The translations under genes were made by a program, and so were the position numbers. From a virus, in IMG/VR virus record IMGVR_UViG_3300042936_000009, positions 1 to 21,796 of that record: 21,796 nucleotides of DNA; one strand, written 5' to 3'. The first letter of the stretch is position 1, and every line of letters begins with the position of its first letter. The notes beneath the pieces were generated by a model that saw nothing but the letters and a program-made list of their open reading frames with translations, did not search any database and was not told the DNA's origin. Below, one piece after another: positions 2,023 through 18,742 of this stretch.

Positions 2023-2343
2023 TTAAACCTTGACTTTCAAAACATTAGCATTGGCTGTGTCAAGATATACATCTCCTACCCGTAAGTAGACCAAATCAGC
2101 CTGTGTAGGAATGCTTAGCACTCTAGCCCCAGTAACCACATTTGCCTGACTAAAATTTAAAGCAGCAATAATTTTGGGTGCGCCATTAACCACATTGCGC
2201 TGGGTAGACATAGCAGACGGTCCTGGGTTGTCTAATTGGTTAAAATAAAGCCTTAAAACAGCATTAAGCTGTTCTTGGTACTGCTGGCTGTATTCCGTAG
2301 GAGCCGCAGGTAAGTTGGGGTTTTTAGTAGTTCCAGTACTCAT
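2023..2343 (-). CDS. Small conserved phage protein, function unknown (106 aa)
   Basis: The ATG at 2343 overlaps the TGA of the tail-accessory gene by 4 nt (ATGA), indicating translational coupling. The first 45 residues look flexible and then helical (QYQEQLNAVLRLYFNQLDNPG). The second half appears beta-rich, ending with VGDVYLDTANANVLKVKV. There is no signal peptide, TM segment or catalytic motif. Short proteins with a 'LN..LRLYFN.LDN' segment commonly lie next to tail-accessory genes in podovirus-like aquatic phages, so a minor virion or assembly role is plausible but unproven. Confidence 0.75.
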   Translation of the reverse strand: MSTGTTKNPNLPAAPTEYSQQYQEQLNAVLRLYFNQLDNPGPSAMSTQRNVVNGAPKIIAALNFSQANVVTGARVLSIPTQADLVYLRVGDVYLDTANANVLKVKV

Positions 2344-4493
2344 CTGCGTCCGTCCGGTCTAATATCAATACGTGGGGTACCCATCTGCCAAGATACGCCT
2401 AGTCCATCAGAATAGATTCTCATAGCCATTTGACGACCACGCAGGCGAGTATATACCTGCCCTGTAAACTCTTGAATTGTATATACAGGAACTGTACTAA
2501 AGTTATCGGCACTTTGAACTGGATTTAAGTCTGCATTGCCATAGTTTGTCCCACTGTTTTGACGTGGTCGTAACTGCATCGTTACCGTAGGCTGGTTTAC
2601 ATTTGAGCCGTTAAAGTTAATATCAGGCAACATCCGCCATACATAACCAAAGTTATGTCCATCTCCAATGTCAAAGTCAGAAGACTGAACATAGGAAACA
2701 ATAGGTACTGTAGTGGCTGTAGAAGCATCATCATTACCAACCTCGTGGTAAATAATGGTTCCTGTTGGGTTTGCAAGCTCATCAACGCCATTAATAAATG
2801 CTCCCATAGGGTTTTGTCTAATACCAGAATCTAACCAAGATGTGCGGTTTAATGCGCCGTAATACCATACACGGTCTAAGTAGTTATAGACTACATACTT
2901 ATCTACGACTGTACTGTTTACAGAACAATAGAACCACCAGATTTCATTAAACCCTTCATTAGTTCCACAAGAAACTTGCCATGATTGGTCTTTATTAATA
3001 TCGGCAAAAACGTATTGGCGCAGCGCACAAGGCAGAGTTTCTACACGACCAGAGTACATATAGAACTTGTCAGTACCCATCCAGTAAGTAACGCCATTAA
3101 TTGTAATAATAGCGTTTGGACCCATAATTGAGATGTTATCCATCAATACAGTAAAGCCCCAAACATAGGGAGGCCCAAGATACTGCATGGAGTATATGGT
3201 GGAATCTGTCAATACTAAAATTTCTTGGCGGGTGTTAATAGACGTTACGATGTAGGAACCGTGCGATAGGCGGAATTCACCAGCCTGATTGGTAATATCT
3301 GGCACCCATTGATAAGGGTTTTCTTGGTCAGACCAGCGTACTAGCATAGGATCAAACGGTGTTAATGGATCTGCGGGGTTATATGAATTAGCGCCCATAG
3401 CAATAACAAAGCGTTGAATATCAGAAGACACTACTTCATTGGTAGCATTTGGAACCCATTGCCCGCTAGTAGCCACTGCTACGTTAGCTAGATCCGATAG
3501 TTTTTTACCTCTAACCTGTACACCTGTAGCAGCATCCCAATAATAGATTTGCCCATTACGAGGAGCAAAAATTAGATCTTCACCATAGTTATCTGCAGAC
3601 CATAAGCGAAGCTGTGAGCCTACTGTTTGCGGTGCAGCATTACCCCATCCGTAGAAACCCCAAGGAGCAGCGCCCCAGCCATTGCCAAATGTATATACAT
3701 CGAGACCACCAGGAACTAAGTATTCCACAGTAATGTTGTTACCCCCACCAGCATCTACTTTTGATGTAGTAAAGGTAATGTTAGTTAAATTATTGTCTGG
3801 AGTACTGATAGCGGGGGCATACCAATAGCTTGACCCATATTCAAATACTTGATGTTCTTGGTTAATGACGTTTGCAGTTAACCCTCCAACTGATGTAGAG
3901 TTAGACAGTATTACAAAGTCTCTAGTGTTAGAGATATTATTGGCATCAAAGAATTGAAAGTATCCACTTGCTATATTAGCGCCTGCAGTATGCGTAGCAG
4001 CATTTGTGTTGTTAAACCCACGAATACAGTTCACAGCTACGTTTGCTGTAATACTATTGTAGTAAATCTGCTCACTATCAATCTTCATTACCCCAGCTTG
4101 CGGTGCAAAATAGGCGGCATTTGTCAACGAGATTGTAGTTGTATTAATTGTGACATTAGATACTAAAGTTGTAAATCCTGTAGAAATTGCATTGTTATAG
4201 GTTGCCCTACCAACAATAGGTGTAATGTCATAGTAGTATCCGCCAGACTCAATATAGTATTTTAAATTTGTACCAATACCAAGATAGTTAAAATTGTTTA
4301 AAGTAGCCCAATTCCAAATAGAACGAGCAACGCCTAAGAATGTATTAGCACTTAAACGAATCCAACCACCAAGCTTTTCTGGAAAGCCAGAACGAAACCG
4401 AATCTTATCGCCGTCGAAATACCCACCCTCATTGCTGTAATCGGTGCCTTCACGGTTTAAACCGGGGCGTAGTTGAATTTTCTGTAATGGCAT
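2340..4493 (-). CDS. Tail-accessory / packaged-DNA stabilisation protein, P22 gp10-like (717 aa)
   Basis: A large beta-rich protein. It begins PLQKIQLRPGLNREGTDYSN and a GDKIRFR..FPEKLGGW motif follows at residues 28-44. Later come repeated blade-like segments (for example SIWNWATLNNFNYLGIGT, ILVLTDSTIYSMQYLGPP, ITINGVTYWMGTDKFYMYSG). It ends with RLRGRQMAMRI, W..GTPRIDIRPDGRR. This layout matches the beta-propeller-like proteins annotated as phage stabilisation or tail-accessory proteins related to P22 gp10, which plug the portal channel beneath the adaptor. Residues about 137-176 contain a CIRG...T.AATHTAGA module absent from P22 gp10 itself and shared with the gene at 21395. The gene starts 6 nt after the endolysin stop. 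Assignment rests on motif recognition, not a search. Confidence 0.7.
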   Translation of the reverse strand: MPLQKIQLRPGLNREGTDYSNEGGYFDGDKIRFRSGFPEKLGGWIRLSANTFLGVARSIWNWATLNNFNYLGIGTNLKYYIESGGYYYDITPIVGRATYNNAISTGFTTLVSNVTINTTTISLTNAAYFAPQAGVMKIDSEQIYYNSITANVAVNCIRGFNNTNAATHTAGANIASGYFQFFDANNISNTRDFVILSNSTSVGGLTANVINQEHQVFEYGSSYWYAPAISTPDNNLTNITFTTSKVDAGGGNNITVEYLVPGGLDVYTFGNGWGAAPWGFYGWGNAAPQTVGSQLRLWSADNYGEDLIFAPRNGQIYYWDAATGVQVRGKKLSDLANVAVATSGQWVPNATNEVVSSDIQRFVIAMGANSYNPADPLTPFDPMLVRWSDQENPYQWVPDITNQAGEFRLSHGSYIVTSINTRQEILVLTDSTIYSMQYLGPPYVWGFTVLMDNISIMGPNAIITINGVTYWMGTDKFYMYSGRVETLPCALRQYVFADINKDQSWQVSCGTNEGFNEIWWFYCSVNSTVVDKYVVYNYLDRVWYYGALNRTSWLDSGIRQNPMGAFINGVDELANPTGTIIYHEVGNDDASTATTVPIVSYVQSSDFDIGDGHNFGYVWRMLPDINFNGSNVNQPTVTMQLRPRQNSGTNYGNADLNPVQSADNFSTVPVYTIQEFTGQVYTRLRGRQMAMRIYSDGLGVSWQMGTPRIDIRPDGRR

Positions 4494-4499
4494 CAGGGT

Positions 4500-5093
4500 T
4501 TACCCTAGTATTGATAGTGCTTTAGCGATCTTGGCTTTACGGTCTTCTAAGCCAATAACGCCACCATTTATTCTCTTCGTCATTGTGTCATAGTCCTGAG
4601 CATCAGCCAAGCTGTTTAAGCCCTTCTTATTCCAGAACCACGCCGCACTTAAAGCCGCATATTCAGGAGTATTAAGCAGACTAGGATTACTGAGAAGATC
4701 CACACCAATACCAGATCCGCAGTTTGCATAATTTTCCTTTCCAGTAAGTTGGATTAATCCACGTCCGTGGTATTTCCAGCCATCGCCAGTTTCTTCTACG
4801 CCATTACCCATACGTCCACCATATACCTTATTAGCAATAGCCTCTTGGTTATGGGCGTACTTCATTGCAGTGGGCAGATCTGGGAATCGACTAGGCCAGA
4901 CACGCATTAAGGCTTCTGGCTTGTAATTAAGGTTTTCTTCAAGATTCTTAAAATTACCAGACTCATGAGCGCACTGACCAATAAACGCTGCTTGACGCTG
5001 TGGTGTTGAAATATCGTATTTGGCAAAGGCATTCTCCAAAGGTTCTAACCATTTTGCGTCAATACCGAGTGCTTGTAGTTGTTCGTTGTTCAT
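4500..5093 (-). CDS. GH19 family endolysin (chitinase-like lysozyme, 197 aa)
   Basis: Compact single-domain glycoside hydrolase family 19 protein. The catalytic acid is expected at Glu44 in GQCAHESGNF, with a second acidic residue at Glu52 or Glu53 in the following NLEENLNY. The substrate-cleft signature YHGRGLIQLTGKENY lies at residues 108-122 and the conserved KRINGG at 173-178. Phage members of GH19 cleave the glycan strand of peptidoglycan. No signal peptide or TM segment is visible, so export would need a holin, which is available upstream. Its ATG overlaps the preceding stop by one base (TAATG). About 200 aa is usual for phage GH19 endolysins, so the gene looks complete. Confidence 0.92.
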   Translation of the reverse strand: MNNEQLQALGIDAKWLEPLENAFAKYDISTPQRQAAFIGQCAHESGNFKNLEENLNYKPEALMRVWPSRFPDLPTAMKYAHNQEAIANKVYGGRMGNGVEETGDGWKYHGRGLIQLTGKENYANCGSGIGVDLLSNPSLLNTPEYAALSAAWFWNKKGLNSLADAQDYDTMTKRINGGVIGLEDRKAKIAKALSILG

Positions 5094-6863: not shown

Positions 6864-8264
6864 TTACGCTGTATAAGTGCCAGAAACGGTGTACTTTAAG
6901 ATGGTATTTGCTCCAGAAATAGTAACTGTTGGGGCGCCTGTAGTCGTTCCGCTATAGCTTGCAGTAGGTACGGAAACAACAATTACACCAGACCCGCCAG
7001 CAGCACCAGCACCGCTACCAGCACCACCGCCACCGCCGCCAGTATTTGTACCACCGTTACTTGTACCATTGCCACCACCGCCTATACCACCACCGCCTGA
7101 ACCTCCGCCTCCGCCACCGCCACCACCACCGGCATAGTAAACAGCAGACCCAGTAAGAGTATTTAAAACTCCAGCCCCTCCAGAACCTGCTGTTGAGTCA
7201 TTTGGTGCATTTCCTCCAACAGCACTACCGCCACCACCGCCACCGCCGCAGAAAGTTTGACCACTACCACCAGCAAAACCTTGTCCTGAAACTCCTGCGC
7301 CACCAGCGCCAGCTATTGTAGGGTCTCCACCACCTGAGCCACCACCGCCGCCTGAACCACCTGAAACGCCAGCAGCTCCGGCACTACCGCCACGACCACC
7401 ACCAGTAGCTATAGCCACGCCTGTGATAGATGAGTCTGTTCCTGATGTGGCACTTGCGCCACCACCACCGATAACCATTGTGTATGTAGCTCCGGGCGTT
7501 ACTGATAATGAACTTGCAATAAATCCACCGCCACCGCCACCGCCACCGAAACTAAATCCACCGCCACCACCGCCGCCGCCAGAAACAACCAAATAATTAA
7601 TGGTGTATACGCCTTGTGGAAAGGTTTGGAAACGAACCCAAGTACCACCTGTAAAGCCTTCATAAATTGCTAATTCGCTGTTGTAGCGCAATATCCCATT
7701 TTGTCCTGTAGCAGCACGAGATGCCGTATTGCCAGTTGGTAAAAAGATTTGCCCGGTACTTGAGTTAGCGAAGAGGTTTGCGCCAAAAGTAGCCTGATTT
7801 AAAACAACTAAGTTTTTACCAATAGCAGCATTACCAGTAACAGTTAAGTCGCCATCAATGTAATTAAATTGGGTAGCACTGAAGAAGTTTGTGCCATCAC
7901 AAAAAATAACTTCACTTGCAGCATTAGCAATAGCAACACCGTTTCCAGAAGTTGTTTTAATGGTTACTGTAGCGTTTGAGAAATTACGGACAATATAAGT
8001 CTTTTCTACTGCAGGGGCAATAACGTTGCAAGGAGCGGCTAACAAACCACCAAAAACCAATACAGCATTACGAGCCTGATCTGGAAGTCCGTTATAGTCT
8101 GTTAAGGTGTAATCCCCGCCAACTAAAGTAATTGGCTCAACACCGGCAATAGCCTGCTCTAATAGCGTTCCTAAGTTAGTATTGGTGGTTGTACCCCAAG
8201 TTCCGGCTTGTTCGCCGTTACCAATAAGCTCTAGTCCTAGCGAGGTTGAATAGGTGGATGGCAT
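6864..8264 (-). CDS. Tail fibre / glycine-rich adhesin, paralogue A (466 aa)
   Basis: Modular protein. Residues 1-40 carry the fibre-type start MPSTYSTSLGLEL..NGE with GTWG.TTNTNLG.LLEQAI. Residues 45-132 are a beta domain (ARNAVLVFGG, NVIAPAVEKTYIVRN, FCDGTNF). Residues 136-170 look like a collar of short beta turns. Residues 174-210 are a PTGNTASRAATGQNGILRYN module. From about residue 222 comes a glycine-rich domain with runs of 8-11 Gly, interrupted by short variable hydrophobic segments such as ATYTMVIGGGG and AVYYAGGGG. It ends VSGTYTA. Gly-rich domains of this layout resemble the polyglycine-II receptor-binding region known in T-even gp38-type adhesins, so receptor binding is inferred. 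It is the last adhesin before the lysis genes. Confidence 0.82.
   Translation of the reverse strand: MPSTYSTSLGLELIGNGEQAGTWGTTTNTNLGTLLEQAIAGVEPITLVGGDYTLTDYNGLPDQARNAVLVFGGLLAAPCNVIAPAVEKTYIVRNFSNATVTIKTTSGNGVAIANAASEVIFCDGTNFFSATQFNYIDGDLTVTGNAAIGKNLVVLNQATFGANLFANSSTGQIFLPTGNTASRAATGQNGILRYNSELAIYEGFTGGTWVRFQTFPQGVYTINYLVVSGGGGGGGGFSFGGGGGGGGFIASSLSVTPGATYTMVIGGGGASATSGTDSSITGVAIATGGGRGGSAGAAGVSGGSGGGGGSGGGDPTIAGAGGAGVSGQGFAGGSGQTFCGGGGGGGSAVGGNAPNDSTAGSGGAGVLNTLTGSAVYYAGGGGGGGGGGSGGGGIGGGGNGTSNGGTNTGGGGGGAGSGAGAAGGSGVIVVSVPTASYSGTTTGAPTVTISGANTILKYTVSGTYTA
6960..7585 (-). repeat. Glycine-codon low-complexity repeat, paralogue A
   Basis: Irregular runs of alternating GGT and GGC codons (seen on the plus strand as CCACCG repeats, for example 7102-7133) encode the Gly-rich domain. 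Runs are separated by short unique segments. Confidence 0.8.
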
Positions 8265-8267
8265 GTT

Positions 8268-9230
8268 TTATCCTTGATAATCGTTTACGTTAATCCAGCT
8301 TGTATTAGCAGTATTGTTAATAGTAGTCCAAGTTCCGGCATTAGCCGTTACAATATTAGCCCAATTTGGGGTTTGTCCATCGTTGATTGTAATCCAACCA
8401 CGGGTGAAAAGCGACTCATAAATGGTCATTAAATCCGTTACAATTCCTGCAAAGTCAGCAGAAGAAGCTTCGGTATCGGTTAGGCTATAGGAGTCAACCA
8501 AAGCACCAACCCAGTCATAGCGTGCAGATTGAGAGTCTGTTAAGGTAACAAATTCTCCACGATCTACAGGGTTATCTACTGTTCCAATGTAAGTATCTAG
8601 TACATCAACGAACTCTGCGTCTGTTACATAGAACTCAAATACGCCGGGCTGGTCATCCGTAATATTAAAAGAATCATCCAAAACACCGGCAAAGTTGGCG
8701 GTAGAATCATACAGGTCAGTTAGGGTTACGGTATCTTCTGTGTTTACGGCAAAGCCTTGAGGACCTAGTTCTACGGTAGTTAAAGTAACGTTTTCAGCCG
8801 TAGTCGTTGTAAAGACAACTTGAGTAGACTGAGTTTCCGTTATGTTTGCGGTCTCTTCATCAGTGGCAAAGAACGCTACTTGGGTACTAATTGCTTCCGT
8901 AAAATCTGATGCTTCTTCTTGAAGAGCGTAAGTATCCCATGCGCCTTCAGGAGTATCGGTTAATGTAAAGATCTCGCTAGACTGGGCAGATGTATTCCAA
9001 GCGCCATTTGCAGCGTCCAACAAGGAAATCGTATCGCTGCTAAATACAAAGAATTCAAATACTGGGCTGTCATCTGTAGATAACGCAAAAGATTCAGACG
9101 TTACTCCAGTAAAGTTGGCACTAGATGCAAAGACATCCGATAAAGTCAACGATTCCGCTAGCGCAGCATTAAAAGTATTGCCTGCTAAAGAAGCAAATGG
9201 TGACTGGGCAAATGCGCTTATACCAAACAT
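8268..9230 (-). CDS. Acidic tail-fibre-region protein of 20-residue and 11-residue repeats (320 aa)
   Basis: Residues 26-285 are thirteen consecutive units of exactly 20 residues with no indel. Each opens with an acidic residue at position 1 (26, 46, 66 and so on to 266), then a beta-like core ending around position 5 (TL, TI, SL, NI), an acidic or polar residue at position 7, and usually an aromatic residue near position 15 (F40, F60, F120, F140, F160, F180, F200, W240, F260). Typical units read EIFTLTD, DTVTLTD, EFVTLTD, DSYSLTD. The C-terminal 42 residues carry Trp at 279, 290, 301 and 312, an exact 11-residue period. The protein is very acidic, with no TM segment. The regular repeats suggest an elongated beta-solenoid or shaft. 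Being within the fibre block makes a virion fibre likely; no named family is recognised with confidence. Confidence 0.75.
   Translation of the reverse strand: MFGISAFAQSPFASLAGNTFNAALAESLTLSDVFASSANFTGVTSESFALSTDDSPVFEFFVFSSDTISLLDAANGAWNTSAQSSEIFTLTDTPEGAWDTYALQEEASDFTEAISTQVAFFATDEETANITETQSTQVVFTTTTAENVTLTTVELGPQGFAVNTEDTVTLTDLYDSTANFAGVLDDSFNITDDQPGVFEFYVTDAEFVDVLDTYIGTVDNPVDRGEFVTLTDSQSARYDWVGALVDSYSLTDTEASSADFAGIVTDLMTIYESLFTRGWITINDGQTPNWANIVTANAGTWTTINNTANTSWINVNDYQG
8271..8396 (-). repeat. Four 33-nt units encoding an 11-residue Trp repeat
   Basis: Trp residues at 279, 290, 301 and 312 recur every 11 codons, with Ile, Val or Asn at the third and fourth positions after each (WITI, WANI, WTTI, WINV). 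The last unit is partial. Confidence 0.8.
8376..9155 (-). repeat. Thirteen 60-nt units encoding a 20-residue repeat
   Basis: Unit length is constant at 20 codons across 13 copies. DNA identity between units is only partial, with the best conservation over the codons for the (E/D)xxTLTD core, so this is an old, selected periodicity rather than a recent expansion. Confidence 0.82.
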
Positions 9231-9232
9231 AA

Positions 9233-10519
9233 TTAGGCCGTGTAGGTTCCGCTAGAAGTAAATTTAATAATTGTGTTTGATCCGCTGGTAGTTATTGTTG
9301 GTGAACCAGTTGTTACGCCAGAGTAGCTTGATGATGGAACTGATAAGATTACCACGCCTGAACCACCATTAGCGCTGTATCCACCACCGCCACCACCTGT
9401 ATTGGCAGCGCCAGCACCACCTCCACTACCTCCACCACCAGCACCACCAGCGCCATTAACATCCCAACTTGTACCACCGCCACCGCCAGCGTAGGCAACC
9501 GAAGAACCTGTAATGCTGCTAGCTAAACCTGATCCACCAGCACCACCTCTACTAAGGTAGTCATAATAACCAGCTTGTCCATTAGCGCCAGCTCCACCAC
9601 CACCGCCACCTGCTCCACCACCGGGAACATAACCACCACCGCCACCTGCTCCCCCTTGAGAACCAGCACCACCAGATGTCAAGCCACCGTCGTTGTAACC
9701 AGCACCGCCCCCTCCACAGCCACCAGCACCACCATTATTACCAGAGCTACCTCCATTACCACCACCATTAGCTGTTGTTTGTCCTGTTAAAGTTGTACCA
9801 CCGCCACCGCCAGCAGCACCGCCACCGCCACCTACAATAGCTGTATATACTGTTCCAGCAGTTGCTGTAAGTGATGATGTTCTATAACCGCCAGCACCGC
9901 CACCACCAGTATGTTGACCGTTGTAATAAATTCCGCCACCACCGCCACCGCCGACCATTAAATAAGTAATAGTGTATTGGCTAGAAACTGGACCAAGAGT
10001 ATTAGAAGTTACTGCATTTGCAGTTCCAGCTAAGTTAGTAGCAGTCACATTACATGTAATGTTAGCGCCGTTTTGTGTAGATGTTAAAACAAAAGTACTG
10101 GCAGTAGCGTTAGTAATATTTGTCGCATTAGCTCTCCATTGGTATCCGTAACTAGTTGGAGAGTTTGACCATGTGCCAGTTGTTGAGCTAAGAGTGTTTC
10201 CAACTATTGTGCCTCCAGAAATAACAGGCGCAACAGTATTTACCGGCAAAGAAATTGTAGTTGGAACATACCAATCATTATTGTTATAAAACTCAAATTG
10301 TGCAGTAGTACTGTTATATCTCACTGATCCATTGACGGCGGTTGGTCTTTGAGCGGTTGTTCCTGCAGGAACCTTAACAGCGCCAGTAGAGTTAAATGTA
10401 ATAGCCTGAGCGTTACTAATAGTAATTGCGGTTGTATTTGCGGTTTGCAATTGAATAGACGCAGTAGTATCTACAGTCTGAACTATCCCACTAGCATTGG
10501 CGTTAAATATAATACTCAT
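9233..10519 (-). CDS. Glycine-rich adhesin-like fibre protein with Ig-like domain, paralogue B (428 aa)
   Basis: Residues 1-84 are the N-terminal module shared with paralogues C and D (NASGIVQTVDTT, LQTANTTAITIS, NSTGAV, GTTAQRPT.VNG..RYN, ending FYNNNDW). Residues about 92-180 form a bacterial Ig-like domain: APVISGGTIVGNTL, GTWSNSPTSYGYQW, STFVLTSTQNGANITCNVTATN. W117, W128 and C156 lie where this fold's core residues are expected. From residue 183 (ITYLMVGGGGGGG) to about 395 is the glycine-rich domain, followed by the shared tail GSGVVILSVP...TSSGTYTA. It overlaps the stop of gene C by 4 nt (ATGA). The likely role is host-surface recognition, by analogy with Gly-rich phage adhesins. Among the four paralogues, only this one has the Ig-like insertion. 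Confidence 0.82.
   Translation of the reverse strand: MSIIFNANASGIVQTVDTTASIQLQTANTTAITISNAQAITFNSTGAVKVPAGTTAQRPTAVNGSVRYNSTTAQFEFYNNNDWYVPTTISLPVNTVAPVISGGTIVGNTLSSTTGTWSNSPTSYGYQWRANATNITNATASTFVLTSTQNGANITCNVTATNLAGTANAVTSNTLGPVSSQYTITYLMVGGGGGGGIYYNGQHTGGGGAGGYRTSSLTATAGTVYTAIVGGGGGAAGGGGGTTLTGQTTANGGGNGGSSGNNGGAGGCGGGGAGYNDGGLTSGGAGSQGGAGGGGGYVPGGGAGGGGGGAGANGQAGYYDYLSRGGAGGSGLASSITGSSVAYAGGGGGTSWDVNGAGGAGGGGSGGGAGAANTGGGGGGYSANGGSGVVILSVPSSSYSGVTTGSPTITTSGSNTIIKFTSSGTYTA
9330..9964 (-). repeat. Glycine-codon low-complexity repeat, paralogue B
   Basis: Runs of GGT/GGC codons (CCACCG on the plus strand, for example about 9588-9650) encode the Gly-rich head of the adhesin. Confidence 0.78.
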
Positions 10520-11655
10520 GCTGTATATGATCCACTTGCTGTAAATGTTAGTACAGTGTTATTACCGTTGGTTGTGACTGCAGGGCTACCTGTTGTGGTG
10601 CCGGTATAGTTTGTAGTAGCTATAGAAATAATTACTACGCCAGATCCGCCTGAGCCACCTACTCCACCATAGGACCCACCGCCACCGCCACCTCCAGTAT
10701 TAGCCGTTCCAGATATAGCTGCTGGAGTATTTGCAGTGCCTCCAGATGTATTTCCACCGCCTGCGCCACCGCCGCCATTACCACCGGGGCCTACTGTTCC
10801 TGTACTATAAATTCCACCGCCACCGCCACCCGCATAAAAAACAGATGATCCAGTAATGCTTGATGCTAAACCAACACCACCAAAGGCTCCAACTGTACCA
10901 TTAGCTTTTCCAGTACCTCCAACTCCACCAGCTCCACCGCCACCACCATGAGAATAGTTTGGCGTTCCTGTAGCTCCAACTCCACCAGCACCTCCAGCGG
11001 ATCCTTGACTTGCTTTTGCAGAACCACCTACGCCGGCGGCACCACTATCTGAGTTACCGCCACCACCGCCAGAACCTCCGTCATTACCTGCATTACCACG
11101 ATAAGCTGGAGTAGCCGTACCTCCAAAACGAGATCCACCGCCTCCTCCACCATATGATGTAAATTGAAATACAGAAGAAGGGTTGCCATTTTGCCCGTTT
11201 AGTCCTAGGTTTAAATCAGCAGTCCCACCCGTGCCTCCAGCGCCTACAGTAACTGGATATACAATGCCTCTATAAATGGATGTATTACCAGCTAATAATC
11301 CACCAGCGCCACCGCCTCCACCAAATGCTCCGCCGCCGCCACCGCCACCTACTACTAAATAACTAGCCGTATATGTAGCTGATGAAATAGATGTAATAAC
11401 TTGCCAAGCAGAATTGGCATATCCCTCTATTTGGTTTATCGTAGTGTTATAACGCATCATTCCATTAACAAGAGAGGCTGGTCTTTGTGCTGTCGTTCCA
11501 GATGCCAATACAACAGCGCCCGTGGAATTACAGAACACATCTTGTGTAGTACTAATAGTTAATGCCGCCGTATTTGCAGTTTGAAGTTGCAATACTCCAG
11601 ACGTATCTACAGACTCAGATAATCCAGCAGAAGAGGCGTTGATGATTGTACTCAT
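10516..11655 (-). CDS. Glycine-rich adhesin-like fibre protein, paralogue C (379 aa)
   Basis: The N-terminal module of residues 1-84 (STIINASSAGLSESVDTSG, LQLQTANTAALTIS, GTTAQRPASLVNGMMRYN, GYANSAW) closely parallels gene B. After a short linker the glycine-rich domain starts at residue 98 (SYLVVGGGGGGG). It contains YPVTVGAGG, then GLASSITGSSVFYAGGGGG, which is almost the same in B, and finishes GGSGVVIISIATTNYTGTTTGSP and ASGSYTA. It starts with an ATGA overlap on gene D and ends with an ATGA overlap on gene B, so the three are translationally coupled. There is no enzymatic motif. An adhesin role is inferred from domain type and position. Confidence 0.82.
   Translation of the reverse strand: MSTIINASSAGLSESVDTSGVLQLQTANTAALTISTTQDVFCNSTGAVVLASGTTAQRPASLVNGMMRYNTTINQIEGYANSAWQVITSISSATYTASYLVVGGGGGGGAFGGGGGAGGLLAGNTSIYRGIVYPVTVGAGGTGGTADLNLGLNGQNGNPSSVFQFTSYGGGGGGSRFGGTATPAYRGNAGNDGGSGGGGGNSDSGAAGVGGSAKASQGSAGGAGGVGATGTPNYSHGGGGGAGGVGGTGKANGTVGAFGGVGLASSITGSSVFYAGGGGGGIYSTGTVGPGGNGGGGAGGGNTSGGTANTPAAISGTANTGGGGGGGSYGGVGGSGGSGVVIISIATTNYTGTTTGSPAVTTNGNNTVLTFTASGSYTA
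10620..11361 (-). repeat. Glycine-codon low-complexity repeat, paralogue C
   Basis: Imperfect CCACCG/CCGCCA runs on the plus strand (for example 10677-10697 and 11330-11350) encode the Gly-rich domain. Confidence 0.78.
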
Positions 11656-12821
11656 GCTGTATAAGATCCTGATGCATTAAACCTTAATATAGTGTTTGAT
11701 CCACTAGTTGTAACTGTGGGGGTGCCTGTAGTTGTTCCAGTATATCGTGCAGTAGGAATGGACAAAATAACTACTCCAGAGCCGCCTGCTCCGCCGGGTC
11801 CAGTACTCCATGAGCCAGCACCGCCACCGCCACCACTATTAGCTCCGCCTGCTCCACCAACAACGTTATCAGTAGTTCCGCCATTAGCTCCAGAGTTGAT
11901 AGAGCTGCCACCACCTAAAGCTGCGCCTGTTGCTCCATTACAACTGCCAGCTCCGCCACCACCTATGCCGCCATTGCCTGCAAAGCCGTTCAAATATCCA
12001 CCACCGCCGCCACCGCCACCAAAATATAAAGAAGAACCAGTAATGGTTGATAAAATTCCAGCGCCACCAGCACCTATTCCTGTGGAATTGCTTGCGGTTA
12101 CTACATTTGAATCTGTATTTGATCCTTGAGAGCCAGCACCACCTCCGCCAGCACCTCTAGTTGGAGACCCAGCTCTAGCTGCATACATATTGCCACCAGA
12201 GTTACCATAAATAATTCCAGTATTTTCACCTAAAGAATTTCCAGTTGAGGTTCCTCCAGTATTAAGAACACCATTATTAGATGCCGCTCCACCGCCTGAG
12301 CCTCCGTTATATCCTATGCCAGCATCATGTGAGCCACTGGTTCCGCCGCCAAATGCAGTTGCACCAAATGCGGTTGTAGATGCCCCATTTGCACTGCCAG
12401 CACCACCGCCACCAACTACAAATGTATATGTTGTGCTAGGTGCTAAATTAAGTTTTGGTAATGATATAACTCCACCAGCACCGCCTCCACCTCCAATTGC
12501 AGCTCCACCTCCACCGCCCCCAGCAACGATTAGCGCATCAACAATAACTGGCCCGTAATTAACCCAAGCAGAATTAATGTAAGCTTCAAACGATAGGTTG
12601 GAAGTGTTGTAACGGATCATACCGTTAGTCGGTGTAGGACGTTGTGCGGCAGTACCAACAGGTACACCAAACTGTCCAGTTGAAGACATATTGGCGTTCT
12701 GACTAGAATCTATAACTACTGCATTAGCGCCGTTTGTCTGTAATGCAAGTGTAGCTGTCCCGTCTGCCTTTGTTTCTAGCAGTCCAACTTGTGGATCAGG
12801 AACAGCATTTATGGATGACAT
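11652..12821 (-). CDS. Glycine-rich adhesin-like fibre protein, paralogue D (389 aa)
   Basis: The N-terminal module of residues 1-86 is a more divergent version of that in B and C (GLLETKADGTATLALQTNG, GTAAQRPTPTNGMIRYN, AYINSAW). The glycine-rich domain follows from residue 94 (VDALIVAGGGGGG) with TTYTFVVGGGG, then GAGILSTITGSSLYFGGGGGG. The shared tail is GGSGVVILSIP..RYTGTTTGTPTVTTSGSNTIL, ending ASGSYTA. The segments between Gly runs differ from the other paralogues, as expected for receptor-contacting loops. The ATG at 12821 directly abuts the TAA of the 56-aa gene. The long plus-strand proline-rich open frames across this gene are the antisense of the Gly repeats and are not genes. Confidence 0.82.
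   Translation of the reverse strand: MSSINAVPDPQVGLLETKADGTATLALQTNGANAVVIDSSQNANMSSTGQFGVPVGTAAQRPTPTNGMIRYNTSNLSFEAYINSAWVNYGPVIVDALIVAGGGGGGAAIGGGGGAGGVISLPKLNLAPSTTYTFVVGGGGAGSANGASTTAFGATAFGGGTSGSHDAGIGYNGGSGGGAASNNGVLNTGGTSTGNSLGENTGIIYGNSGGNMYAARAGSPTRGAGGGGAGSQGSNTDSNVVTASNSTGIGAGGAGILSTITGSSLYFGGGGGGGGYLNGFAGNGGIGGGGAGSCNGATGAALGGGSSINSGANGGTTDNVVGGAGGANSGGGGGAGSWSTGPGGAGGSGVVILSIPTARYTGTTTGTPTVTTSGSNTILRFNASGSYTA
11757..12542 (-). repeat. Glycine-codon low-complexity repeat, paralogue D
   Basis: CCACCGCCG-type runs on the plus strand (for example 11998-12019 and 12480-12520) encode the Gly-rich domain. Confidence 0.78.
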
Positions 12822-12992
12822 TTAAGCATCCGGTGGGAGCGGGACTCCGCCTTGTGCTAGCCATTCTTGATAGGCTTGCCAGTCTGTGTTTTCTAGGTCG
12901 TTTGGAACGCAAGCACCATCTGGCAATCGTATAATGCAATAATCAGCATTTTGCTTAGTTACTGGGTCTAAAAAATATTGATATGTGTACAT
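12822..12992 (-). CDS. Small fibre-associated protein, possible assembly factor (56 aa)
   Basis: The start ATG at 12992 is chosen over an upstream in-frame start at 13034 because it has GGAG seven bases before it and sits one base after the preceding gene's stop; the longer form would overlap the end of the carbohydrate-binding fibre gene. The product begins MYTYQYFLDPVTKQ and contains IRLPDGACVPNDLENTDWQAY and EWLAQGG. The pattern 'IP.D..NTD.Q.Y..WLA.G..P.P' is frequent in small tail-fibre assembly or accessory proteins and at fibre ends of many phages. Its place between two fibre genes supports an accessory role; the precise function is unknown. Confidence 0.72.
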   Translation of the reverse strand: MYTYQYFLDPVTKQNADYCIIRLPDGACVPNDLENTDWQAYQEWLAQGGVPLPPDA

Positions 12993-12993
12993 T

Positions 12994-14085
12994 TTATAAC
13001 TCCGCAGATGCTGTATAGCTACCAGCTCCAGCATTTGTATTCATTATGCAAGGTCTGTATGCTGTTAATCCTGTAAAGTTACCAGGCAATAAAAGACCAC
13101 CTTGGGCATTTCCTAAATACCCCCCTGCTGAAGCTGACGATTGGGCATAGTTTCCTACTCCATCATAAACTCCAATAACTCCTGTTACACCCATTGTTGG
13201 TGTTGTTCTAAGAGTTACTGGAAATACTGCTGATAACATAGCATCTGCTGAACCGCCTTGTGATGCTCCACCAAACCTTAAATTGGTTTGAAAATAGCGC
13301 TGACACATAGCTAGCTGAGTTGTATAATCAACATACTCAAATCCAGTAGCAGAGCTACCTACTTCTAGTTGTACGCCTGTTATGTAGAATGTTGCGCCAT
13401 TTGTACCTACTACGGATGTTGCGCCTGTGGCTGAGGAGTAATCTCCTGCAATCCAAGCACCTGCAGCAGCACTTAATGTTGCACCTACACCAAGCCCCCA
13501 GTACACATTCATACCAATACCATTAGTAGTGAGCCATGTTCCTGTGGTTGGTCCAGCAATCGTTATTGATTTTTGTTCCCAAGTATTTGCTGCTGAAATT
13601 GTATATGTGTATGGGTAAGCATACGTTGATGCTGAGTTTTTAACAATTCCACCAAATGTGCCAGTTAATGAACTACGAACCCAAAACGATAAAGTAATAG
13701 TTTTGGCATTGGCTGTTCCCCAATCTAAGTCTGCAACATTAAGTCCTTCAACTCTTTGCCATAACAAAAATTGTTCACTAGCGCCTACTGTATAAGCTGA
13801 AGATGATGTAACACCGCTATAGTTTGTAAACCCTGTTGGAGGTGTTACAGCACCCGCATTTTGCTGACCTGTGCATTTGGAGGCTACGCTACCATATAAG
13901 GCAAATCTATCTACTATGTATTGAACAGATGTAGATTGAGTTATTGAAGCCCCAGCATTACGCTGGTCAATACGCATATCACCGTTAATAATACGGTTCT
14001 TAAAGCGTGAAGCATTACCAGCGCCAAGGCTTACGCCAGTTACGCTAGACTGAATTTGATCGGCGGCTAAGATTCCGTATGGCAT
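12994..14085 (-). CDS. Tail fibre protein with carbohydrate-binding-type domain (363 aa)
   Basis: It contains the recognisable phage fibre signature SRFKNRIINGDMRIDQRNAG (residues 26-45), then a jelly-roll-like region: LLWQRVEGLNVADLDWGTANA, TLSFWVRSSLTGTFGG, NTWEQKSITIAG, and FYITGVQLEVGSSATGFE at residues 233-250. The family's TQLAMCQRYFQT follows, then a variable C-terminal part of about 100 residues. In this widespread family the middle domain resembles carbohydrate-binding jelly rolls and the end is presumed to be receptor-binding. The product ends SYTASAEL. It overlaps the upstream assembly-protein gene by a single base (TGATG). Confidence 0.85.
   Translation of the reverse strand: MPYGILAADQIQSSVTGVSLGAGNASRFKNRIINGDMRIDQRNAGASITQSTSVQYIVDRFALYGSVASKCTGQQNAGAVTPPTGFTNYSGVTSSSAYTVGASEQFLLWQRVEGLNVADLDWGTANAKTITLSFWVRSSLTGTFGGIVKNSASTYAYPYTYTISAANTWEQKSITIAGPTTGTWLTTNGIGMNVYWGLGVGATLSAAAGAWIAGDYSSATGATSVVGTNGATFYITGVQLEVGSSATGFEYVDYTTQLAMCQRYFQTNLRFGGASQGGSADAMLSAVFPVTLRTTPTMGVTGVIGVYDGVGNYAQSSASAGGYLGNAQGGLLLPGNFTGLTAYRPCIMNTNAGAGSYTASAEL
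13000..13003 (-). promoter_or_regulatory. Ribosome binding site deciding the start at 12992
   Basis: GGAG on the minus strand lies seven bases before the ATG at 12992, inside the last codons of the upstream fibre gene. No comparable signal was seen for the alternative start at 13034. Confidence 0.6.
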
Positions 14086-14450
14086 CAGCTACTCCATTGT
14101 TCTGTTGGTTGTGTAGGCCATACTGGGTCAGCCACAGGATTAACTGCATAACCACGAATGGTATTTCTATAGGCAAAAAATTCAGCTTGGTTTACAAGGT
14201 ATGGATTGTTTTCTGGATTTGCAACATCTGGAATGGTAGTCCAATCAGTTTCATACAAAAGACTAGATGCAGTTTTTTTGCAAGCTTCTTTATCTATAGA
14301 CTCTTGAGTTGCTGGCCATAAAGCATCTAACTCTTCTTGAGTTGGTTTTGGGGTGCTAGATAACCAATTCAAACCATCATAGGAGTCCCCCATTAATGAC
14401 CACTGAGATCCAACATAATTTATGGTAAGAATTTGTGCATAATTAATCAT
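14085..14450 (-). CDS. Putative tail-fibre assembly chaperone, XkdW-like (121 aa)
   Basis: Starts with INYAQILTINYVGSQWSLMG, followed by DSYDGLNWLSSTPKPTQEELDALW at residues 23-46, then a helical region (QESIDKEACKKTASSLLYETDW) and VNQAEFFAYRNTIRGYAVNP near the end. The 'W...GDSYD.L.W....PKPT.EEL' start and the later 'TDWT..PDV..P......FA.YR..IR' are typical of small phage proteins annotated as tail assembly chaperones or XkdW-like. It lies directly before the carbohydrate-binding fibre gene and is coupled to it by one base, so that fibre is the likeliest client. This is inferred from context. Confidence 0.72.
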   Translation of the reverse strand: MINYAQILTINYVGSQWSLMGDSYDGLNWLSSTPKPTQEELDALWPATQESIDKEACKKTASSLLYETDWTTIPDVANPENNPYLVNQAEFFAYRNTIRGYAVNPVADPVWPTQPTEQWSS

Positions 14451-14977
14451 GCTGCTATCTCCATAACGGTTATAGTTGAAATCTGCCTTCCAATGCCATC
14501 GGCACGAGTATTTACATAAGCAGTTGTGCCAGAATAGGCTTGTATTTTATATGTAAGTGCGGATGTTGTTGCTGGAGAATCTAAATAGTTTATACTTACA
14601 TTATAAACTTCACTAGAAATACCTAAGTCACCAACATATTGATTTGCAGTAGATGGCTGAGAGCCAAGATTATCTGGCTGCCCTATATTAGTTCCATTCC
14701 TGACTAAGTTAATACGCACATAGTTACTTCCAGTACCGCTACATTGAATTGTTGCAAGAACCAATATTTTGCTTGTAGAAAATTTTGGAGTAATGTTGAC
14801 AGTAACACCAGTATCAATAAAAGATCCTGCGCTAACTGTAGTGGTGTTTGCAAAAGTAGAGCTTTGGACTTGCAATACACTACCAGCACTAGCCTGCAAT
14901 GTCGCATTAGGAAAAGTAATCCCGCTAGTGCTATCAATAGTAATGTTAGAGGTATTGCCTGTTAGATATAAAGCCAT
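14447..14977 (-). CDS. Beta-rich tail-fibre-type protein (176 aa)
   Basis: N-terminal fibre anchor MALYLTGNTSNITIDSTSGI and FPNATLQASAGSVLQV lead into a beta-sandwich-like domain: FANTTTVSAGSFIDTGVTVN, ITPKFSTSKILVLATIQ, YVRINLVRNGTNIG. It ends IGRQISTITVMEIAA. Proteins with 'SVLQV......T......DTG....ITPK..TSKILV....' and 'ITVMEI.A' ends are common phage fibre or head-decoration-like proteins of uncertain function. It overlaps the assembly-chaperone gene by ATGA and is coupled to the upstream C1q-like gene by TAATG. No enzyme motif is seen. Confidence 0.78.
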   Translation of the reverse strand: MALYLTGNTSNITIDSTSGITFPNATLQASAGSVLQVQSSTFANTTTVSAGSFIDTGVTVNITPKFSTSKILVLATIQCSGTGSNYVRINLVRNGTNIGQPDNLGSQPSTANQYVGDLGISSEVYNVSINYLDSPATTSALTYKIQAYSGTTAYVNTRADGIGRQISTITVMEIAA

Positions 14978-15522
14978 TATGCGCCCCTAGCTAAAAAGCC
15001 AGAAAATCTTGTTTGAACAATAGTACCGTTGTATATTGCAGTAGTAGCAGCTATATACGGTGATGCAGTTGCATAATCCGTAGTTCCGTTCATATATAAC
15101 AAAACAGAACCACCCATGCATGATGGAAGGGTACTAAAATTATCCGCAACACGCTGAGCAACACCATTTTTATCAATGTGTAACGCAAATCTTGTGGGTG
15201 CTGTTGATGCTTCGTTAGTACAAACTACTGTAAATAAATAATATCCAGCCACATTTGGTAAAAAAGCATAAGCTGGAATTCCACCGACAGTAGATCCTGT
15301 ATTATTAAAGCAAGAAGCCGTATCAAACACTTCTGTATTATTAACCATTACAGGTTGTGTTCCACTGGTGATGGTTACGTTTGTGCTTGGGTAAGCCAAG
15401 AAAGCTGGGGCAACGCCGCCCATCGGCAAGTTAACGCCGTTGTTCTGAAACTGTAATTGACCACTTAAATCGCTGGTAAGCGTTAAGCCTGTAGAGTTGG
15501 ATGCATTAATAATTGATGGCAT
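14977..15522 (-). CDS. C1q-like virion protein, second copy (181 aa)
   Basis: The start at 15522 (PSIINASNSTGL) overlaps the previous TAA by one base. A start five codons upstream at 15537 would read through a stop-overlap region and is less likely. Residues 1-31 are the short anchor shared with other fibre proteins of the block (GLTLTSDLSGQLQFQNNGV). Residues 38-181 form a C1q/TNF-like jelly roll: VAPAFLAYPS, FDTASCFNNTGST, PAYAFLPNVAGYYLFTV, LHIDKNG, LLYMNGTTDY, and FSGFLARGA at the end. The same landmarks appear in the protein at 16179. Phage C1q-like domains are trimeric and often located at fibre tips, so binding is inferred. Confidence 0.8.
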   Translation of the reverse strand: MPSIINASNSTGLTLTSDLSGQLQFQNNGVNLPMGGVAPAFLAYPSTNVTITSGTQPVMVNNTEVFDTASCFNNTGSTVGGIPAYAFLPNVAGYYLFTVVCTNEASTAPTRFALHIDKNGVAQRVADNFSTLPSCMGGSVLLYMNGTTDYATASPYIAATTAIYNGTIVQTRFSGFLARGA

Positions 15523-15728
15523 TATAGTACCACCCAACGGACGCCAGAAGGCAAGGTTACTGTTACGCCGTTAGCCAAAGCAATCGGGCCTGTTGCGGAG
15601 GCGCTAGTATTCGACGCAAAAGTAATGCTTGTAGAAATAGTCTGGTTGTTTATATACAACGCAGAGGTTTTCTGAGTGCTATTGTCGGGATAAATAATCC
15701 CATTGGTTCCGTCAAGTATCAGCGCCAT
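15522..15728 (-). CDS. Mini-fibre protein: N-terminal anchor plus fibre C-terminal module (68 aa)
   Basis: MALILDGTNGIIYPDNSTQK at residues 1-20 is an anchor of the type found at the start of many phage fibre proteins. Residues 21-68 align without gaps to the last 48 residues of the 636-aa long fibre (20 identical by eye), both ending GP.....NGV..T..SG.RWVV(I/L). The whole shaft seen in the long fibre is missing. The gene has a good start with AAGGAT upstream of 15728 and is coupled on both sides, so it is not obviously a broken gene. It may be a minimal fibre or cap, or the remnant of a longer one. Confidence 0.75.
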   Translation of the reverse strand: MALILDGTNGIIYPDNSTQKTSALYINNQTISTSITFASNTSASATGPIALANGVTVTLPSGVRWVVL

Positions 15729-15737
15729 TTCAAATCC

Positions 15738-16163
15738 TTAAGGCTGTGGTTCTATTAAAACCCAAGATAAAGTAGCTTCATCCCAATAATATGCTTTGCC
15801 GTCATCAGGGTAAGGCACTGGAGCTTCCCAATAGTAAGTAGATGTATTGAGGATCCAACTTGGATAAGGTTGTGGTGCGTAGAATACGCCAACAACACCA
15901 TCAATTACTACTGATGAATCGTATGTATATCCAATACCAGCGTAGTTTGCACGCAATGGTACGCCACCGTCTGGAGTATTTGGCTCTGCAGGGGGAGATG
16001 GTGCGTAATGCACGTTTCCATGAGTGTTGTAGCTGGTCTGAACCCAGTTTGCTGGAGATCCGACAGCGCCCGAATTAATAAAATCTTGGTCAGCCGAGAT
16101 CACATCAGTTACCATAAATTTGGTAGCTAAGCTAGTTGGTTGAATTTTTGCAAAATATGGCAT
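15738..16163 (-). CDS. Conserved phage fibre-accessory protein, YxWDE/SYNTHG type (141 aa)
   Basis: It has AKIQPTSLATKFMVTDVIS, DQDFINSG, WVQTSYNTHGNVHY, PLRANYAGIGYTYD, FYAPQPYPSWILN and PDDGKAYYWDEATLSWV in that order. This string of motifs is well known in proteins of cyanophages and other aquatic phages, usually annotated as hypothetical or virion-associated and often encoded beside fibre genes. The aromatic C-terminal WDE-type repeat suggests carbohydrate or protein binding. A clear AAGGAA Shine-Dalgarno lies before the ATG at 16163, and its stop TAA forms part of the next gene's Shine-Dalgarno (TAAGGAT). The biochemical role is unknown. Confidence 0.78.
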   Translation of the reverse strand: MPYFAKIQPTSLATKFMVTDVISADQDFINSGAVGSPANWVQTSYNTHGNVHYAPSPPAEPNTPDGGVPLRANYAGIGYTYDSSVVIDGVVGVFYAPQPYPSWILNTSTYYWEAPVPYPDDGKAYYWDEATLSWVLIEPQP

Positions 16164-16178
16164 GTTTGTTTCCTTAAA

Positions 16179-16832
16179 TTAAGCGCTTCTTGCTAAAAAG
16201 CCAGTAAAATATGAATAATAAGAACTGACAGTAGTTCCCATTGTTAGGTTTGAATTAACATAAAACTGAATATAATCTCCAGTTCCATTCAAATACACCA
16301 AAGTTGTTCCCAAACAAGCTCCACCGCCAGAAGCGCTATTGGTTAACCAACCACCACTCGCATAAGCACTACCATTTTTATACAATGCACCTTGGGTTGT
16401 TTGGGCTGCCCCATTATTTCCAGCAAAAGCAAAAGTTACTTGATAGTAACCCGGAACATTTGGACAAAAAGCATAAGCTGGTACAGACAAACCATTTAAT
16501 GTGGCTGTGCTTCCTGTGTTGTTAAAACAAGTATTAGTGTCAAAGTTTTTTGCACCTAAAGCAATTAATGCGTTAACTCCAGCAGTTAAAGCAGTATTTG
16601 AATTTGGATATACACTAAAGGCAGGCGCTGCATTTGCACCCTGAATCACTCCTCCAGTTGCTGTTATAGATCCAGTAACTATTACATTACTAGCAAAAGT
16701 AGCAGCTTGTGTATTGCTTAGTGTTAAAGCAACCGTGTTAGCTCCTCCAGTCGTAAAGACTAGATTGCCAGTTGTATCGCCCGTATAAATAAGCGATGTA
16801 GTAGTCGTGTTTCCAGCTTGTATTACGCTCAT
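16179..16832 (-). CDS. C1q-like virion protein, first copy (217 aa)
   Basis: N-terminal anchor SVIQAGNTTTTSLIYTGDTT and LVFTTGGANTVALTLSNTQA (residues 1-45) resembles the anchors of the glycine-rich adhesins. A short collar-like IVTGSITATGG follows. Residues 69-217 are a C1q-like jelly roll: APAFSVYPNSN, NFDTNTCFNNTGST, VPAYAFCPNVPGYYQVTFAF, LYKNGS, TTLVYLNGTGDYIQFYV, YFTGFLARSA. In phages such domains form trimeric heads on fibres. It is coupled to the long fibre by a one-base TAATG overlap. Cysteines at 102, 123 and 173 are mostly not shared with the second copy except the one in CFNNTGST. Confidence 0.82.
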   Translation of the reverse strand: MSVIQAGNTTTTSLIYTGDTTGNLVFTTGGANTVALTLSNTQAATFASNVIVTGSITATGGVIQGANAAPAFSVYPNSNTALTAGVNALIALGAKNFDTNTCFNNTGSTATLNGLSVPAYAFCPNVPGYYQVTFAFAGNNGAAQTTQGALYKNGSAYASGGWLTNSASGGGACLGTTLVYLNGTGDYIQFYVNSNLTMGTTVSSYYSYFTGFLARSA

Positions 16833-18742
16833 TAGATAACCACCCAGCGTTGACCGCTTGCAATAGTAATTGACACACCGTTAGCCTGTGTAACTGGTCC
16901 AACAGAGAAGCCATTTTGTCCAGCAGCTATTGTAGCATTTGAGGTAATGTTAACGTTATTTAAAATGATTGCGCTATTACCTGTGGCTAAAGCGGCGTCA
17001 ATAGTAGACCAAGATAAAGCATTAGCGCCATCAGTTTTAAGGTACTTATTTGCATTACCAGACTGATCTGGCAGGATCGTGTTGGAAGAAACTACTTGAG
17101 CTGCGCTACCGTTAAAGCTTACGCCAGTCGCTGCGCCGTTACCTGTATTGGTAAAGGTCAATAAGCTGACTACCGAACCAGCAGAGATATTCGCTGGAGA
17201 CTGCCAGATAGGAGCAGTAGCATTACCAGTAGACTGCAACAGGTAGGTATTAACGCCAAAGTTTCCATTAAACGCAACCGCATTGGTTGAGTTAATCGTC
17301 ATAGCATCTACGTTGCTAGCATTGGTAACAATACGGACGCCGTTATTAGTAGTAGTACCTAGGACCAATTCACCGTTTACAGAATAGACATAGACAGCAT
17401 TAGGCAGTGCGAGGCTTCCGGGTCCAGCAAAGGTAGATCCATTAATACCAAAGTCACCGTAGTAAGATCCTTTGGTTCCTAAGTCATTGCTAACAATATA
17501 GTCTGCAGAAGCAGCATTACCGCTACTAGTATTCTGTAATATCCATTGTCCGTAGCCGTTTTCTGCGTGAACAAACGAACCAAAGATGCCTGTATCGGAA
17601 TAACCTAAAGTGCCGTCTCTAAATGCACCATAAGCTACGTTTGCGGAAATGTCGGCTGTAGCACTAAAGTACGGCGCTTCAACTGTGTTGTTTGCAAACG
17701 ACAGATTAGACGAAGAAGCAAAGGCGCCTGTGCCGTTACCGTAAGGAATGTAATTAGCGGTTAGGTTGGTAATCCCAGTACCACCAGCTACAACAGGGAG
17801 AGTGCCTGTAGTTAAAGAGCTATTGGATGTAGCATAGACCGCAGCGTTGGCTGTAAAAGTAGTTAAACCTGTACCGCCGTATGCTGTAGCAATTGTGGTT
17901 GCATTCCATGTTGCGTTGGAAATAGTCGTGCCACCAAAGTTGGCAGTTGTTGTACCCCAGTTTACGGTTGCTGGAAGTAGCGCATGTTTGCTCCAAGTAC
18001 CAGTATTTGAACCATTGGCTAACAGTGTAACAACGTCAATGCCACCGCCCGGTATTAAGTCAACCAAGCCAGAAGAGGCATCATAGACGCTTAAATTACC
18101 AGTAGAGTCATTGTTAAATACAAAGGCAGCTCCCGCAGCTAAAGTTGTTGCATTTGGAAGTTGATATGTTTGATCTAAGGTACCAGTTAAACGCTGGTAG
18201 TAAGTAGATGCGGCGGTTAATGTGGTTGTTGTGCCTGCTGATGTGGTTGCAGTAAAGCCGGGCAACCAATTATTAAAATCAATATTTACATTTGCATCAC
18301 GCAACACTACGCTATTAGCGCCAGATGAAGCTGTAACTCCAGTACCGCCGTAAGCAACGCCGATTGTATTAGCGTTCCATGTACCTAAAGTAATATTGCC
18401 TAAAGCAGATACATTACCGCTAGTATCTAAGTAGACGGATTGTTCTGCAGGGTAGGTTACAAAGACCGATTGGGAGCCAGAGTTAAAGTTAGATAGGCTA
18501 CCACCATTGCTAGATGAAATGACGGTGTTACGCACCACAGAGTTATTAGCACTGTAGTATGTACCAATACCAACTTCCCATTCAGCACCGCCAACTGTAG
18601 CGATGGTGTAATAGGTCGTGTTGGAATTGCCAACACCGTTAGCAAAGGTTTGATAGCCAGTAGTGGCACCAAGTAATGTTACTGTACCTGTGCCGGGGCT
18701 ACTCGCCGTCTCTAATACACGGTCCTTAAGCACCAGAGCCAT
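16832..18742 (-). CDS. Long tail fibre protein (636 aa)
   Basis: Residues 1-110 are a widespread phage fibre N-terminal domain: ALVLKDRVLETASSPGTGTV, GYQTF, TYYTIATVGGAEWEVGIGTY, RNTVISSSNGGSL, VFVTYPAEQSVYLD. The shaft contains three related turns, GTWNANTIGVAYGGTGVT (120-137), ATWNATTIATAYGGTGLT (278-294) and TLPVVAGGTGITNLT (314-328), of the kind found in trimeric beta fibres. Residues 345-520 hold a region with VAYGAFRDGT, GNASNVDAMTINS-type text and likely head domains. The last 48 residues, ending SGQRWVVI, recur as the body of the 68-aa mini-fibre. A TAAGGAG sequence formed by the previous stop provides the RBS. As the longest fibre and first of the block, it is the best candidate for the primary fibre. 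Confidence 0.87.
   Translation of the reverse strand: MALVLKDRVLETASSPGTGTVTLLGATTGYQTFANGVGNSNTTYYTIATVGGAEWEVGIGTYYSANNSVVRNTVISSSNGGSLSNFNSGSQSVFVTYPAEQSVYLDTSGNVSALGNITLGTWNANTIGVAYGGTGVTASSGANSVVLRDANVNIDFNNWLPGFTATTSAGTTTTLTAASTYYQRLTGTLDQTYQLPNATTLAAGAAFVFNNDSTGNLSVYDASSGLVDLIPGGGIDVVTLLANGSNTGTWSKHALLPATVNWGTTTANFGGTTISNATWNATTIATAYGGTGLTTFTANAAVYATSNSSLTTGTLPVVAGGTGITNLTANYIPYGNGTGAFASSSNLSFANNTVEAPYFSATADISANVAYGAFRDGTLGYSDTGIFGSFVHAENGYGQWILQNTSSGNAASADYIVSNDLGTKGSYYGDFGINGSTFAGPGSLALPNAVYVYSVNGELVLGTTTNNGVRIVTNASNVDAMTINSTNAVAFNGNFGVNTYLLQSTGNATAPIWQSPANISAGSVVSLLTFTNTGNGAATGVSFNGSAAQVVSSNTILPDQSGNANKYLKTDGANALSWSTIDAALATGNSAIILNNVNITSNATIAAGQNGFSVGPVTQANGVSITIASGQRWVVI

Follow-up and report, generated by a model that had tools for sequence, protein, structure and literature searches.

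The four glycine-rich fibre genes of this phage probably encode four receptor-binding subunits with TNF-like/polyglycine-II heads, the heads apparently being replaced gene by gene through recombination and not by a retroelement. The window analysed (G000) is an IMG/VR virus record of 21,796 bases. The protein family is already known and sets of this size recur in related phages. What appears to be new, on comparison of related sequences, is head-localised synonymous divergence, gene by gene, within a multi-gene fibre block, and this is the part worth following. The Pfam Gly_rich_2 and PHROG 2295 entries carry no function, and the four genes offer both a hypothesis of function and test cases for the common phage domain Gly_rich_2.

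Nearly every gene of the window lies on the minus strand. Between about 18.7 and 6.9 kb there is a run of fibre-type genes, comprising anchors with C1q-like, chaperone-like and Gly-rich members; an endolysin gene and a virion structural 'stabilization' gene follow downstream. The features are as follows.

14447-18742, minus strand: remaining fibre-block genes, whose products also bear anchors and have C-termini of C1q-like or other types (16832-18742, 16179-16832, 15522-15728, 14977-15537 and 14447-14977, all minus strand)
14085-14450, minus strand: gene of probable tail-fibre assembly chaperone type, 121 aa
12994-14085, minus strand: tail fibre protein, 363 aa, whose head is of a further type (PHROG 4492, E 5.9e-45)
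11652-12821, minus strand: fibre gene g1, 389 aa, with anchor, Gly-rich head and C-terminal strands (from Pfam, PHROG and landmarks)
11787-12536, minus strand: Gly-rich head of g1, residues 96-345, 37% Gly
10516-11655, minus strand: fibre gene g2, 379 aa
10651-11361, minus strand: Gly-rich head of g2, residues 99-335, 42% Gly
9233-10519, minus strand: fibre gene g3, 428 aa
about 9980-10255, minus strand: extra domain of g3 between anchor and head, about 92 aa, residues 89-180 (PHROG 12736/26223 match)
9368-9964, minus strand: Gly-rich head of g3, residues 186-384, 47% Gly
8268-9230, minus strand: gene between g3 and g4, 320 aa, 5% Gly, fibre block member
6864-8264, minus strand: fibre gene g4, 466 aa; its anchor (MPSTYSTSLGLELIGNGEQAGTWG...) is of another type and widely shared
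6999-7595, minus strand: Gly-rich head of g4, residues 224-422, 47% Gly
4500-5093: endolysin gene (PHROG 181, E 2.7e-82; Pfam GH19)
2340-4493: virion structural 'stabilization' gene

The gene at 14085-14450 has weak matches to PHROG tail assembly chaperone and tail fibre assembly families (E 2.6e-4 to 1.5e-3) and to Pfam Phage_tail_APC (E 0.017); the Pfam C1q match of 14977-15537 (E 0.0038) is below the cut-off. The closest annotated relatives of the stabilization gene go by the names stabilization, constituent, tail or needle head protein, which suggests that the phage is short-tailed. ATGA stop/start overlaps are present at 11652/11655 and 10516/10519. A promoter and terminator scan gave hits at or below the shuffled expectation.

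Open reading frames lie exactly where the first-pass annotation had placed four paralogous Gly-rich adhesin genes (6864, 9233, 10516 and 11652), all on the minus strand, and their kinship is borne out: all four match Pfam Gly_rich_2 (PF21722) and PHROG 2295 (E 1e-26 to 1e-43) and their landmarks align. The common internal landmarks are present, with entry variants ALIVAGGGG, YLVVGGGG, YLMVGGGG and YLVVSGGGG. Placement in one uninterrupted block holds for three consecutive genes, the fourth being split off by the non-Gly-rich 8268-9230. The protein encoded by this intervening gene is repeat-like, with recurring LTD/LTDT stretches, and in relatives the same slot is taken by MFGF... proteins (233-461 aa) that show little similarity in sequence.

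Each of the four proteins consists of an N-terminal anchor, a Gly-rich domain of 199-250 residues (37-47% Gly) and a C-terminal strand segment of 44 residues common to all four. Two anchor types are found among them, that of g4 being the different one. The curated PF21722 cut-off (24.3 bits) is passed by three of the four genes, with E values of 8.6e-11 (g4, 6864), 2.2e-13 (g2, 10516) and 3e-7 (g1, 11652); g3 (9233) falls just under it (E 4.2e-5, 24.1 bits). The matches are near full-length, running from profile positions 8-11 to 217-224 of 226. Against a head profile built here, whose training rows included its own family, the g2 head scored 220 bits and the best of 200 self-shuffles scored -33.7, so the match is not due to composition alone. 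A low-complexity artefact is ruled out by these shuffles and by the confident g2 model described below. Searches of NCBIfam and of the literature on the family name gave nothing useful.

The paralogue tails had been called near-identical, but they share only 58-74% of their protein sequence (25-32 of 43 residues) and 73-95 of 129 bases (57-74% DNA identity). Recent tandem duplication in the window phage is ruled out because of this low DNA identity, because the repeats are short, Gly-codon-rich and mostly 60-70% alike, and because three of the heads group by gene across phages.

The g2 protein (379 aa) was modelled with AlphaFold2 from a 60-row alignment (mean pLDDT 90.6, pTM 0.78). Most of its Gly region is confident but is classed as neither helix nor strand, the assignment that polyglycine II would receive; strands at 94-136 and 340-378 are predicted on both sides of it. 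The g4 model, from a 6-sequence alignment, reached a pLDDT of only 36; the fold is therefore predicted for g2 and carried to the other genes by homology. Ordered Gly runs, as the first-pass annotation had envisaged, are thus predicted for g2, whose top PDB matches combine TNF-like and glycine-rich parts, and the g4 model is of low confidence. The g2 prediction supports an ordered, not disordered, Gly-rich head.

Foldseek was used to compare the g2 model with the PDB. Ranks 1-10 are all the Bxb1 tail tip (the best match), the cyanophage Pam3 fibre or ALK/LTK glycine-rich domains, the last at ranks 4-10. These matches are weak (best E 1.7e-3), with TM-scores by target of 0.35-0.41 for the phage chains and about 0.2 for ALK/LTK. 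In BFVD (viral models), 149 matches were found at E<=1e-3, the best being mostly phage 'glycine-rich domain-containing' proteins. A sequence profile search of the PDB gave no significant relative, the Pam3 fibre appearing only at E 9.3.

The Pam3 fibre protein gp24 (PDB entries 7ypx and 7yfw) is a phage fibre with a TNF-like part, a C-terminal Gly-rich domain and a variable distal tip. It has 12 Gly-rich motifs and is accompanied by a chaperone gene, and receptor binding by its distal domain is only proposed (PMC9608196). The 7ypx entry is the third-ranked, weak match of the g2 model (E 0.065, with a probability of 0.80 and a TM-score by target of 0.39), in which the Gly region is likewise closed by beta strands before and after it. 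Pam3 gp24, however, belongs to a myophage, its N-terminal domain is alpha-helical, and it has no significant sequence similarity to the four proteins, which come from four genes with beta-rich anchors in a short-tail-type gene set. ALK and LTK likewise join a TNF-like module to a glycine-rich (TG) domain, but they are animal receptor kinases with weak structural similarity and an unrelated ligand and context. Gly_rich_2/PHROG 2295 proteins of aquatic phages have the same domain with the same entry and exit motifs, in several genes in many contigs.

Tail fibre adhesins of the haloarchaeal HF1 group are also Gly-rich with variable modules, and have been linked to host range (PMC8651126, PMC7230728). 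An HF2 host-range adhesin was considered as direct proof for the family and rejected: the host-range candidate HrrHF2_490 scored -30.5 bits against the head profile and is not a relative, whereas HrrHF2_520 (L219:15315-16208), an unassigned protein encoded near the baseplate gene, is one (54.6 bits).

Head divergence was analysed in related contigs and loci, which are labelled here with L-numbers. The window's four genes recur in unchanged order in L083 and L094 (g1 at L083:1738-2940 and L094:1732-2937). The stabilization genes of these two are 93% identical to each other, and their stabilization protein is about 71% identical to that of the window. Between these two relatives, DNA identities of anchor, head and tail are 97.6, 75.4 and 99.3% for g1, 98.3, 88.4 and 96.3% for g2, and 95.3, 87.6 and 91.1% for g4. 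For g3, which is unchanged, the values are 97.3, 95.4 and 95.6%.

Fourfold sites with an unchanged amino acid were then compared between head and arms for the same pair. Differences were found at 72 of 145 head sites and 5 of 86 arm sites in g1 (p = 3.1e-13), at 49 of 164 and 6 of 88 in g2 (p = 1.1e-5), and at 43 of 140 and 17 of 149 in g4 (p = 7.2e-5); in g3 they were found at 19 of 167 and 12 of 139 (p = 0.45). Since selection at the protein level alone leaves synonymous change unraised, import of the diverged heads by recombination is the simplest reading of these sequences: the divergence is observed, and recombination would be its cause. Fast evolution in place could partly contribute, but the raised synonymous change argues against it as the main cause. 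These data support variable heads on conserved anchors. Head identity is also below that of the gene's own anchor for g3 and g4 between the window and L185, and protein identity is lower in head than in anchor in most other orthologue pairs; in g3 of the window and L083 the head is 55% identical and the anchor with the extra domain 81%.

Two other genes are strongly diverged between L083 and L094, at 12838-14439 (67.8% DNA identity) and 8445-9002 (73.5%) in L083 coordinates. Both lie beside conserved neighbours, so the head genes are not the sole exchanged places.

Reverse transcriptase (RVT_1) was found in none of 17 related, mostly incomplete contigs, with positive controls, and a diversity-generating retroelement is accordingly disfavoured for this set.

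In a tree of the heads, those of g1 (100/99), g2 (100/100) and g4 (100/99) group by gene and not by phage, which indicates lineages that predate the compared phages. The window's g3 head has no close grouping with its L083 and L094 counterparts. Five heads of L004 cluster together (99/95) in what looks, from the tree, like a local expansion. The support values are rough, as 12 of the 44 rows were untrimmed and the bootstrap had not settled.

Anchor types occur with Gly-rich, C1q-like or other heads, or with none. The g4 anchor was found with Gly-rich heads 11 times, with a C1q-like head 4 times (as in L079/L080) and with other C-termini 53 times. The C1q-type gene 16179 has an anchor that was seen 3 times with Gly-rich heads. 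These tallies are counts of open reading frames, not of events, as overlapping loci were merged only in part. Headless genes of 88-95 aa that consist of an anchor only were observed in five contigs (L088:3939-4205, L157:8190-8474, L189:5896-6177, L076:3050-3328 and L079:759-1046), each directly upstream of a Gly-rich fibre gene. They may be empty slots or functional short subunits.

A set of four had been considered unusual, but two to five Gly-rich heads per contig recur in IMG/VR. Five-gene sets are present in L004, L063 (in direct tandem), L157 and L191, and four-gene sets in L042, L048, L055, L080, L083 and L094. Among 69 loci retrieved with the four proteins as query, 20 have at least two such genes and 7 at least three, figures that speak for recurrence and not for frequency since the sample was selected by resemblance to the four proteins. 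When 26 contigs were picked by their stabilization gene instead, at least one match was found in 10, including L073, the window's own phage. Searches of the literature for multi-fibre cases and of the relatives for terminase gave nothing useful.

In the mechanism that we favour, each gene would encode a short tail-fibre (receptor-binding) subunit whose N-terminal anchor docks on the tail or on another fibre. The head would be a TNF-like beta-sandwich into which a bundle of glycine-rich strands of polyglycine-II type is inserted, with the strand tips facing the host surface and the C-terminal strand segment closing the head. Four such subunits, beside C1q-like and other heads, would be kept to meet varied or changing surface receptors. 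Homologous recombination in the conserved anchor and tail segments would swap the heads singly, per gene, giving head diversity without a diversity-generating retroelement. The scheme presumes a location in the virion, a trimeric state and simultaneous use of all four; receptor binding by the heads is presumed by analogy with Pam3 gp24 and T2-type gp38. A wider version is a speculative possibility: all four subunits and the C1q-like ones would be mounted together, giving each virion several independent receptor specificities, with slots re-armed separately by head-only recombination within a related aquatic phage pool and the anchor-only genes as empty slots. Host range would be combinatorial in phages of this kind if a virion displayed several heads together.

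Alternatively, the proteins could make up a brush on the tail, adhesive or decorating but non-specific, that aids loose attachment, a role presumed for the glycine-rich brush fingers of mycobacteriophage tail tips. The Bxb1 tail tip as best PDB match is in keeping with this, but we regard it as unlikely: in three of the four genes the head is the preferentially diverged part, and the three genes that keep their own head lineage across phages fit specific recognition better.

It is also conceivable that the phage uses no more than one or two of the four, the rest being spare cassettes that act as a reservoir for head recombination. High turnover of the fibre block and the headless genes in five related contigs agree with such a role. 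This is nevertheless very unlikely, given that all four genes are intact and tightly packed with two ATGA overlaps, that their order is kept in L083 and L094, where the stabilization protein is about 71% identical to that of the window, and that dN is well below dS in the anchors.

The first-pass annotation had also placed the genes with the T-even gp38 adhesins, in which Gly-rich motifs are separated by variable segments and for which, in the T2 type, receptor binding has been shown on a fold other than the one predicted here (PMC12892980). That the four proteins are true gp38 homologues, carried at the tip of a trimeric fibre of separate origin, is extremely improbable despite these shared motifs, as Pfam GP38 gave no match at E<=0.1 for the four proteins, sequence searches of the PDB returned no gp38 chain (S16 gp38, 6F45, included), 6F45 is not among the structure matches listed for the g2 model (50 of 52 at E<=10), and the Gly region is flanked by predicted strands, whereas the gp38 fold consists of a beta-helix domain with a PGII sandwich. 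Domain layout differs as well, and attachment probably does too, the Gly-rich heads being fused to their own anchors at the C-terminus of the anchored subunit; a gp37-type trimeric fibre as partner is conceivable. The likeness, Gly-rich motifs holding variable receptor loops, is one of analogy and not of membership, and the working principle is possibly the same.

Shared C-terminal motifs were seen elsewhere in the fibre block and its relatives. The ending SG(V/Q)RWVV(L/I) is common to the 68-aa gene 15522-15728 and the 636-aa gene 16832-18742, and short 154-aa versions in L076 and L083 have the same C-terminal end. The fibre-anchor-like motif GTTA-RP...Y-T...W was also observed at the end of a small gene directly after the stabilization gene (L118:5341-5646 and L131:2538-2852).
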